DNA of 64,000 nt from Acidobacteriota bacterium (GTDB lineage: Bacteria; Acidobacteriota; Terriglobia; Terriglobales; Acidobacteriaceae): assembly GCA_016196065.1 (NCBI GenBank), contig JACPYL010000027.1, positions 248,001 through 312,000 of the forward strand, given 5' to 3'. The position numbers and the translations under genes were made by a program. Below the pieces are notes generated by a model. The model was not told the origin of the DNA. It worked only from the letters and a program-made list of their open reading frames with translations, and did no database searches. Below, in pieces: positions 27,514 to 29,433 of the stretch (the stretch's first letter is position 1; the number at the start of each line of letters is the position of its first letter).

Positions 27514-27789
27514 CTAGTGGGTGGGTGGAACGTATTGCTCAGGCGGAGCGGCGCCCTCGCCGAAGAAGAACTGCTCCATCTGTTTCACGATCACTTCCTG
27601 ATCCTGCTTGCGCGCTGGATTCAGGCGATATTCGTTGAGCAGCATCTTGCAATACTCCGTCCACTGGCTCCAGGCCTGCTGCGAGACTTGGTTGTAGATC
27701 TTCTGTCCCAGCTCGGAATCGAACGGCGGTTCAGCCAATCCGGGCAGTTCCTGTTTCAACTTCGCGCAAAGAACTTTGTGTTCTGACAT
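27514..27789 (-). CDS. Fe(2+)-trafficking / oxidative-damage protection protein, YggX family
   Basis: This 91-residue protein matches YggX. Key parts are VLCAKLKQELPGL with the single conserved Cys, ELGQKIYNQVSQQAW, MLLNEYRLNPA and VIVKQMEQFFFG. YggX proteins are linked to iron handling and protection of Fe-S proteins against oxidants in the cytosol. The ATG at 27789 removes an 11-residue extension that has no conserved content. It lies near Dps, a ferritin-like iron store, but on a separate transcript. It is divergent from the transcript that carries the 13-codon ORF. Confidence 0.9.
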   Translation of the reverse strand: MSEHKVLCAKLKQELPGLAEPPFDSELGQKIYNQVSQQAWSQWTEYCKMLLNEYRLNPARKQDQEVIVKQMEQFFFGEGAAPPEQYVPPTH

Positions 27790-27885
27790 GGTTTTTGAGG
27801 TCCCTGAAAAATTATCGCACACGCCACGGGGACCTGAGCCCGGAGCACGGGGTCACCCAATTCGTCGTCGACCTGCAGATTTTTG

Positions 27886-27916
27886 TTGACAATTGAGATA
27901 CGGATGGCAATATCTT
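27886..27916 (+). promoter_or_regulatory. Consensus-like promoter for the 13-codon ORF transcript
   Basis: A perfect -35 TTGACA lies at 27886-27891. About 17-19 bp downstream is an AATATC/TATCTT-type -10 region (27909-27916). Transcription would start near 27922 and give a leader of about 100 nt before the ATG at 28023, ending at the terminator near 28135. Confidence 0.65.
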
Positions 27917-28022
27917 GTGGTAGGCAAGCTGCTCATACCACAAGTTGAGTAGCGCAGGCATCAAGGTGCCTTGTCGAGAACCTTGGGAGAACAAAATCGT
28001 TCAAAACGGAGGGATATACTTC

Positions 28023-28064
28023 ATGGCAACCAAGAAGAAAGCCGCCAAGAAAAAGAAACACTAA
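28023..28064 (+). CDS. 13-residue Lys-rich micro-ORF
   Basis: An ATG at 28023 with GGAGGG (28008-28013) 9 nt upstream opens a 13-codon frame. The peptide is MATKKKAAKKKKH. It follows a TTGACA-type promoter and a leader that can form small stems (gtggta/taccac at 27917-27941; agg-type arms near 27955-27970). A strong terminator lies 40 nt after its stop. The peptide would be highly cationic and could bind nucleic acid. It is too short for any family call. The transcript may equally be a small RNA in which this frame is incidental, but the strong ribosome binding site favours translation. Confidence 0.6.
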   Translation: MATKKKAAKKKKH

Positions 28065-28101
28065 GTGAGCAGGACGCTCGAATACAGAAGTTTCCCCAAA
28101 G

Positions 28102-28135
28102 CCTCTGGAGAGAAGCACCTCTCCGGAGGTTTTTT
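28102..28135 (+). terminator. Strong terminator of the micro-ORF transcript
   Basis: An 11-bp stem with one G-T wobble (28102-28112 with 28119-28129, 6-nt loop) is followed by six T residues at 28130-28135. It is one of the best terminators in the window. Confidence 0.9.
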
Positions 28136-28313
28136 CTTGTGTGCTTCGCGATTCGCCCTCGGTACCAGGAGGCGTCTTGCGAATGGCGAAGAACGATCAG
28201 CGAACGACGAATGACGGTTCCGAACCACGAATGTACTAAAAGCAGTTGTTTCGCTGAGGGCAACCGTGCTAGAAACGCGATACAGATGTTTTCGTTGCCC
28301 CGGTGAGCAAGCG

Positions 28314-28715
28314 ATGAGTCCCCGAACCAAGTCCGCCGCCAGAAAGATTCGGAGCACGGAAATCATTATTCCTGACAAGCTGTATTTCAGGATTGGCGAA
28401 GTCGCGCGCCTGTGCCGGCTGCAGGCCTATGTTCTGCGGTTTTGGGAGACTGAGTTTCCCCAGTTGAAGCCAGTCAAGAGCAGCACTGGTCAACGGATGT
28501 ATCGCCGGCGCGATGTCGAGTCGGTGATCCGCATCAAGAAGCTGCTCTATGAAGACGGCTTTACGATTGCCGGTGCGCGCAGCCAACTGAAAGAAGAATC
28601 CAAATCCGAGCGCAATCAAAGTGCGCTCCCGTTCCCGATGCGGTCGCAAGTCAATGTGGCTCACTTGCGCCACGAGCTTCAGGAAATCCTGCAACTGCTA
28701 TCCCCGCGACACTAG
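28314..28715 (+). CDS. MerR-family transcriptional regulator
   Basis: This 133-residue protein has an N-terminal basic stretch and then the MerR helix-turn-helix: [31 protein letters not shown] and [13 protein letters not shown]. The next helix, [21 protein letters not shown], forms the dimer arm. No metal-binding Cys cluster is visible, so the effector is unknown. Length is normal for short MerR proteins. The ATG at 28314 was chosen, since the in-frame upstream start at 28266 adds residues not seen in such proteins. Confidence 0.88.
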
Positions 28716-28824: not shown

Positions 28825-29433
28825 TCAGGCCGACTTTAATCGGGACGTTGCTTTCACCAGAGGTTCTTCGACCAGATGCTCGCTCAAGAACCAAACCTGC
28901 AACTCATTCGTCCGGAGCACATCGCTGACGACCAGATCATTGGTGCCATCGTCGCCTTCTTTTTGTGCCCGCTCTGCCAGTTCGCGGCAATAGACGATGA
29001 TTTCCTGGTGCGCGTCCAGCAGTCGCGACAACTGTACGGGTACCTCTTCGCGTCCCTTGGGAGGGCGAGGGATCCGTGTCGTTTCGGCAACGTCTGCCGC
29101 CATGGCAATACTGATTCCACCCAGCAGTTGAATGCGCTCGGCAATCGTGTCGACGATTTCGTCCTGTTCCTCATAATGCTTGTCGAAAAGCAGGTGCAGC
29201 TGGTAGAAGGTTGGTCCCGAAACCTGCCAGTGCGATTTCTTGTAGAGATCGCGGAGTGTCATCGTATCGGCGAGCAGCTGATTCAACCGTTCCGTCATTT
29301 CGAGCCGGACGGGTTCTTCCAGTTGCAGGGGAATCCGGCTGGAAACCGTCCCGAACGCCTGGATTTCCGGGGCGCTCTGGTGATACAGGGGATTCGGTGA
29401 GACCTTGCGTGGGCTAAGAGATTTTTTGGCCAT
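28825..29433 (-). CDS. dps: Dps-family ferritin-like DNA-protection protein
   Basis: This 202-residue protein has the Dps core. The ferroxidase site spans KSHWQVSGPTFYQLHLLFDKHY and continues to the conserved D and E in EEQDEIVDTIAERI. Dps forms dodecamers that store iron and protect DNA in starvation or oxidative stress. Its N-terminus is longer than in E. coli Dps and basic (KKSLSPRKVS), which may bind DNA. AAAAGGAG lies before the ATG. It is cytosolic. Confidence 0.93.
   Translation of the reverse strand: MAKKSLSPRKVSPNPLYHQSAPEIQAFGTVSSRIPLQLEEPVRLEMTERLNQLLADTMTLRDLYKKSHWQVSGPTFYQLHLLFDKHYEEQDEIVDTIAERIQLLGGISIAMAADVAETTRIPRPPKGREEVPVQLSRLLDAHQEIIVYCRELAERAQKEGDDGTNDLVVSDVLRTNELQVWFLSEHLVEEPLVKATSRLKSA

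Follow-up and report, generated by a model that had tools for sequence, protein, structure and literature searches.

Basic bacterial proteins of low sequence complexity, rich in lysine (Lys) and alanine (Ala) and in some cases proline (Pro), are represented by HC2 (Pfam PF07382), the tails of AlgP and PhaF, and NCBIfam NF038053. AlgP consists of a 124-residue N-terminal part and a 195-residue tail rich in Lys, Ala and Pro; the protein is found in association with polyphosphate granules, and DNA binding was reported for tail-derived peptides (PMC9239181). Intergenic, conserved and unannotated microproteins of small open reading frames (ORFs) were surveyed in Enterobacteriaceae over a range of 15-70 codons (PMC11188072). 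Here, a 13-codon Lys-rich micro-ORF encoding MATKKKAAKKKKH was analysed in a window of 64,000 nucleotides (nt) from an Acidobacteriota soil bacterium of the Acidobacteriaceae (assembly GCA_016196065.1, contig JACPYL010000027.1, positions 248,001 to 312,000 of the forward strand); positions given without a genome or record are those of the window. Judged by sequence comparison, the micro-ORF is very probably a real gene that has been overlooked.

The micro-peptide shares the low-complexity composition of the H1-like proteins, resembling the AlgP tail (PMC9239181), and polyanion binding is presumed for it as for them. It differs in form: the H1-like proteins have far longer chains or an additional domain, whereas the micro-peptides are free and have 12-32 residues, and the long repeat or attached folded domain of HC2 and AlgP is absent from a stand-alone 13-residue ORF with its own stop and its own terminator. 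The composition extends to 36 peptides of the family, with 41-77% Lys, Lys-richness being also a criterion of the search that found them. The micro-ORF is intergenic, conserved and unannotated like the enterobacterial microproteins, but has 13 codons against their 15-70 and encodes a polycation (PMC11188072). None of nine relatives (21-56 residues) scored above cut-off in Pfam or NCBIfam, the 13-mer itself being too short for the scan; the best sub-threshold scores, both for one 50-residue relative, were 17.3 bits versus 40 for HC2 and 16.5 versus 80 for NF038053. In the open PMC papers searched no such peptide was reported, and the string MATKKKA was not found. The basic H1-like kind is already known, but the free ultra-short form with a differently led second copy appears to be undescribed in the literature and databases searched.

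The features of the unit are collected in table 1. The two promoter elements are separated by a spacer of 16 nt; the -10 hexamer matches TATAAT at 3/6 positions, and the promoter was left unlisted by the promoter scan. The leader has a length of about 100 nt, and GGAGGG lies 9 nt from the ATG. The peptide has 13 residues with a charge of +7 from 7 Lys (the first-pass annotation had wrongly counted 8/13) and is devoid of any hydrophobic stretch. Type I toxins are hydrophobic membrane-spanning peptides, and assignment to them was rejected on these two features. Longer ORFs in other frames overlap the micro-ORF. The terminator core is a stem of 11 base pairs at 28102-28129, CCTCTGGAGAG/CTCTCCGGAGG, which includes one G-T pair and runs into TTTTTT at 28130-28135; the terminator scan lengthened the stem to 15 pairs (28098-28133). 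The promoter, leader, ribosome binding site (RBS), 13-codon ORF and terminator with six T residues of the first-pass annotation were all confirmed in the sequence, and Pfam matches bore out its placement of the unit between the YggX-type and MerR genes. Within the window, Lys- or Arg-rich micro-ORFs with a Shine-Dalgarno-like site were limited to this ORF and one Arg-rich ORF (48539). Rfam 15 gave 0 matches at gathering score in the window, the best permissive match being NsiR1 (18.2 bits versus 39) on the terminator, and a tRNA was the sole match on five other loci.

DNA searches with the unit covered 61 genomes, of which 24 were of the genus (source genome included). The unit was present over most of its length in 22/24 genus genomes; in G021 it was found in two pieces, the middle being lost at unread bases, and in G018 (80% complete) nothing matched except the second copy's peptide region. 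In an alignment of 22 genus species and one outgroup (A3), the peptide and both promoter hexamers were invariant in 22/22 genus species. Mean pairwise identity was highest in the promoter hexamers (100%) and the ORF (99.0%), lower in the leader (86.7%) and the terminator (85.9%), and lowest in the spacer (75.7%) and the post-stop stretch (75.1%). A chance ORF was ruled out by conservation in the genus together with the shuffled controls given below.

Translation and selection at the protein level are supported, most cleanly by the pattern in the second copy and by a survey anchored on the MerR gene, both comparisons of sequence. The second copy, MATKKKAKKKSSKKH in the source genome (G000:C10:127138, minus strand), was found by DNA similarity and not via its ORF. 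It has the promoter TTGACT-17-TATACA and a leader that differs from that of the first copy. A DNA search with the second-copy unit matched 34/61 genomes, some partly, including 22/24 in the genus, and both copies were present in 20/24 genus genomes by the two DNA searches. A Lys-rich ORF was read in 30/30 fetched loci (29 complete, 1 cut at a contig end). Among 26 aligned rows, ORF length differences were multiples of three in 300/325 pairs, the other 25 all including L296, in which the stop codon was split by the aligner; length differences in the leader and after the stop were of all sizes. Over the first ten codons, 119, 144 and 637 differences fell at codon positions 1, 2 and 3, respectively. 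In the source genome, the second copy has a thiolase gene on one side and, on the other, a UvrD-like helicase/nuclease gene on which it converges (both by Pfam); two other genera share this layout, and crude motifs for the neighbours were recovered in 28/30 loci (at least one) and 15/30 loci (both). Upstream of the second-copy promoter, the sequence GTGACTTTGGTAC occurs at G000:C10:127288-127300 (-), once in the source genome, and recurs with small changes before the second-copy unit in several other genomes; it is possibly the site of a regulator.

In the survey outside the genus, MerR served as the anchor, so that the micro-ORF was not itself the query. MerR was found in 78/80 family genomes, and 75 were examined over up to about 960 nt upstream, G372, G397 and G404 being excluded for weak or cut MerR matches. 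A Lys-rich micro-ORF was present upstream on the sense strand in 35/75 genomes, compared with 0-2/75 in ten dinucleotide-shuffled sets and 2/75 on the antisense strand, where one of the two (G131) was a complete inverted element. Demanding an RBS-like site dropped none of the 35 micro-ORFs found without that demand. The resulting 36 elements (35 plus the inverted one) encode 26 distinct peptides, among them MPAKKKAKKKKKH, MATKKKAAKKTAKKKK and MKKKKKAKKKKR; their lengths run from 12 to 27 residues, and His is the last residue in 26/36 elements. The -35 element was located in 35 elements (the G362 stretch is cut short) and reads TTGACA in 30/35; CAATATC follows at 16-18 nt from it in 29/35. The RBS contains GGAGG or AGGAG in 35/36 elements and GAGAG in 1/36, and a strict terminator was found in 26/36, whereas 20 shuffled sets averaged 1.0 (range 0-5). 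The joint retention of promoter, RBS, ORF and terminator agrees with the self-contained unit for a Lys-rich peptide proposed in the first-pass annotation. Between genera, ORF identity was 72.9%, versus 64.5% with one ORF codon-shuffled, and leader identity 53.5% versus 48.5% shuffled (237 sampled pairs); with these controls, the ORF stands out from the leader less in plain sequence than the raw identities suggest. Differences at the three codon positions numbered 337, 280 and 750, and about 770, 690 and 1075 after codon shuffling (141 same-length pairs).

The reading preferred here, with somewhat better than an even chance of being right as a whole, is a genuine micro-gene with its own promoter, RBS and terminator that would be translated into MATKKKAAKKKKH, a disordered polycation binding a polyanion. 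The unit would be transcribed from its own promoter and stopped by its own terminator, and the strong RBS would drive translation in the cell. The product would behave like the Lys-rich tail of an H1-like protein minus the remaining protein. The charge of +7, the absence of a hydrophobic stretch and the variation in length between genera fit a disordered polycation better than a folded component or a fixed site on the ribosome. If abundant, the peptide could bind DNA, RNA or ribosomes, or another polyanion such as polyphosphate. It would belong to a set of stand-alone Lys/Ala-rich peptides of 12-32 residues, and most genus genomes contain a second copy with a promoter and leader of a different kind.

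Several points weigh against this reading. The data do not discriminate among DNA, RNA, the ribosome and polyphosphate as the partner. In 39/75 family genomes the roughly 960 nt before MerR yielded no Lys-rich micro-ORF, which is therefore dispensable near MerR, and the strict definition of a terminator was unmet in 10/36 elements. The similarity of ORFs between genera is partly mere Lys-richness; the ORFs were chosen for this property, so that their occurrence in 35/75 genomes outweighs the identities as evidence. Matches in distant phyla (below) may be convergent, since Lys/Ala-rich peptides evolve easily. Synonymous positions are near-frozen in the genus, which exceeds the needs of the peptide alone, and the second-copy leader is conserved like the ORF (82.4% and 84.2% identity, respectively, and 52.7% after the stop), which speaks for a constraint on the RNA too.

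The last two points bear on the strongest competing explanation, a dual-function RNA in which a transcript of about 215 nt would itself serve a regulatory or structural function besides coding for the peptide; this was considered a possibility to be taken seriously, if clearly the lesser one. As a yardstick, MerR was taken from the 14 species with a match and YggX from 22 species. Where a residue was common to two species, Lys codons agreed in 63% (MerR) and 61.5% (YggX) of cases and Ala codons in 43% in each gene. Among the Lys, Ala, Thr and His codons of the micro-ORF, 10/12 were invariant in 22 species; of such codons at invariant residues of the neighbours, 0/10 (MerR) and 0/5 (YggX) were fully conserved. 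Since the codons and leader of the micro-ORF are far more conserved than the codons of its neighbours (87% identity of the genus leader, versus 43% agreement of their Ala codons), the whole transcript, beyond the peptide, is on this comparison strongly constrained within the genus. The 250-nt stretch also folded better than 200/200 dinucleotide shuffles (z -4.15), the terminator accounting for part of this.

A structure comprising a 5' hairpin, a candidate pseudoknot, a small hairpin before the RBS, a hairpin after the stop and the terminator was drawn manually from the window sequence, which is itself among the sequences counted in A3. On A3, 94.5% of its cells were paired, and changes on both sides were seen in 13/41 drawn pairs, versus 3.9 in shuffles and 0-6 when the structure was slid along the alignment. 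Of these 13 pairs, 3 lie in the 5' hairpin and 6 in the terminator; the latter, like the use of a counted sequence for the drawing, weigh against a separate role of the RNA. The candidate pseudoknot pairs AGGC with GCCT (helix 1, 27956-27959 with 27968-27971) and CAAGGT with ACCTTG (helix 2, 27962-27967 with 27980-27985); helix 2 is near-invariant, with zero double changes, and so yields no covariation evidence. Other results also weaken the case for a role of the RNA: RNAalifold could not derive a consensus structure from 35 leaders of the family (energy 0), the leader is near background between genera, and the leaders of the two copies differ. When each leader was compared with 30 shuffles, the pseudoknot score was reached by 0/30 in G000 (the source genome), G405, L056 and L057, with G405 using another pairing, by 1/30 in L054, 6/30 in G022 and 7/30 in the related L055; many shuffles matched the score in most of the other leaders, and a general family-wide H-type pseudoknot, first suspected from the genus and from L054-L057, was rejected. 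In L054, L056 and L057, leaders of one copy in other Acidobacteriota families, a strong H-type pseudoknot is possible directly 5' of the RBS. A consensus fold of the second copy was discarded, as it pairs promoter bases expected to lie outside the RNA.

The family thus retains ORF and RBS, with no common structure in the 35 leaders, the reverse of the pattern (hairpins kept, ORF and RBS lost) that the first-pass annotation had named as telling against its proposal. Its alternative of a small RNA may hold in the form of a coding RNA with an additional role, given the frozen synonymous sites and conserved leaders, but is very improbable in the purely non-coding version discussed below.

A very small protein of the ribosome or bound to it, for which bTHX and mycobacterial bL37 offer comparisons, would account for the extreme basicity, the strong conservation in the genus and the strong expression signals; this identity was considered improbable. 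Peptides of 12-27 residues with a sequence that varies between genera are ill-suited to a fixed binding site, and in a search limited to the vicinity of MerR the micro-ORF was missing from more than half of the family genomes examined. Still less credit was given to a leader peptide of a Lys-sensing transcription attenuator controlling the downstream gene. Leader peptides of ribosome-mediated attenuators are likewise short ORFs rich in one residue and followed by a terminator, and at the window locus the co-directional MerR gene comes next. That arrangement fails for the family: in the three genomes whose gene order was compared, the second copy has no directly downstream co-directional gene and converges on its neighbour (UvrD-like by Pfam in the source genome); in G131 the orientation of the first copy is opposite to that of MerR; and MerR encodes a regulator rather than a protein of lysine biosynthesis. 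Least credible is a purely non-coding small RNA in which the ORF arose by chance: the predicted transcript is structured and has its own promoter and terminator, but start, stop, RBS and Lys pattern are retained across the 26 distinct peptides, and the second copy changes length in threes with an excess of third-position differences.

Table 1. Coordinates of the unit, its flanking genes and tandem micro-ORFs in other records.
Feature	Position	Strand	Basis or remark
-35 element TTGACA	27886-27891	+	read from sequence; identical in 22 aligned genus species
Extended -10 element, TGG-CAATAT	27905-27913	+	sequence; hexamer identical in 22 genus species
5' leader, approximate predicted transcription start to RBS	27920-28007	+	start placed from the -10 element
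Leader hairpin GCTGCTCA / TGAGTAGC	27928-27953	+	outer six pairs 97.1% paired, 3 changed on both sides (A3)
Candidate H-type pseudoknot	27956-27985	+	97.8% of cells paired in A3
RBS GGAGGG	28008-28013	+	sequence
Micro-ORF MATKKKAAKKKKH, stop TAA	28023-28064	+	identical peptide in 22 aligned genus species
Intrinsic terminator	28098-28135	+	scan; both sides changed in 6/15 pairs (A3)
YggX-type gene, divergent flank	27514-27822	-	Pfam Iron_traffic, E 9.2e-34; context only
MerR family regulator gene, co-directional flank	28314-28715	+	MerR_1, E 1.3e-17; context, synteny anchor
Tandem micro-ORF starts, L141	3683-3971	-	
Tandem micro-ORF starts, L172	5213-5498	+	
Tandem micro-ORF starts, L131	2699-2816	+	

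Between the unit and MerR, a GTTGT...GTGCTAGAAA stretch (28245-28275) resembles, by eye, a promoter of MerR's own and is also present before MerR in several other family genomes. MerR is followed on the opposite strand by a Dps/ferritin-like gene (Pfam Ferritin, E 2.1e-31) at 28825-29433.

In the phylum at large, MATKKK-type ORFs, which the first-pass annotation had pointed to as the ones to look for in other acidobacterial genomes, were recovered. The exact motif MATKKKA occurred in 21/297 genomes of the phylum with 31 matches. The 30 that were read comprise 23 micro-ORFs with lengths of 12-28 residues, spread over 16 genomes (two in 7/16), and 7 ORFs of 42-341 residues, several of the latter Lys-rich. 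Two copies with different leaders were also present in four genomes of families f65 and f74. A wider pattern matched 47/297 genomes and was not used as a family count; 18 new loci read from it held 5 Lys-rich micro-ORFs and 13 other ORFs. In a motif scan of named genomes, MATKKKAAKK gave at least 120 stretches; among the 80 read, 41 were complete ORFs of up to 32 residues and 39 were longer, fused or cut. The short ones, among the matches listed, came from Acidobacteria/Terriglobia, Bacteroidota, several Proteobacteria, Nitrospirota, Rokubacteria and others. Lys-rich micro-ORFs stood in tandem, three per record, in two Nitrospirota records, with starts within about 290 bases, and as a pair in a Rokubacteria record, each with its own Shine-Dalgarno-like site.

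Longer proteins (L109, L114, L119, L120, L145, L154, L155 and L032) also carry the MATKKKA opening, there as an N-terminal tail rich in Lys, and some of them we take, by eye, to resemble SWIB-type, pyruvate phosphate dikinase-type and Era-type proteins. In a single case from another family (L065, 4480-7683), one micro-ORF adjoins a gene for a CHAD domain, which is a polyphosphate-binding domain.

Taken more widely, the unit could be one example of a class of ultra-short polycation genes (12-32 residues) that is widespread but has not been catalogued, a proposal made only tentatively. Such a class would include two differently controlled copies in Acidobacteriota and the tandem arrays of Nitrospirota, its free 'H1-tail' peptides would be a gene-encoded equivalent of polyamines and would condense DNA, RNA or polyphosphate, and in the genus the transcript would have a function of its own as well. 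To our knowledge, genes of 12-14 codons lie under the floor of ordinary gene callers. They also fall under the floor of the 15-70-codon survey (PMC11188072). The findings suggest that more such ultra-short genes have been missed, and the conserved unit provides a test case for whether free polycationic peptides are used like polyamines or histone tails.
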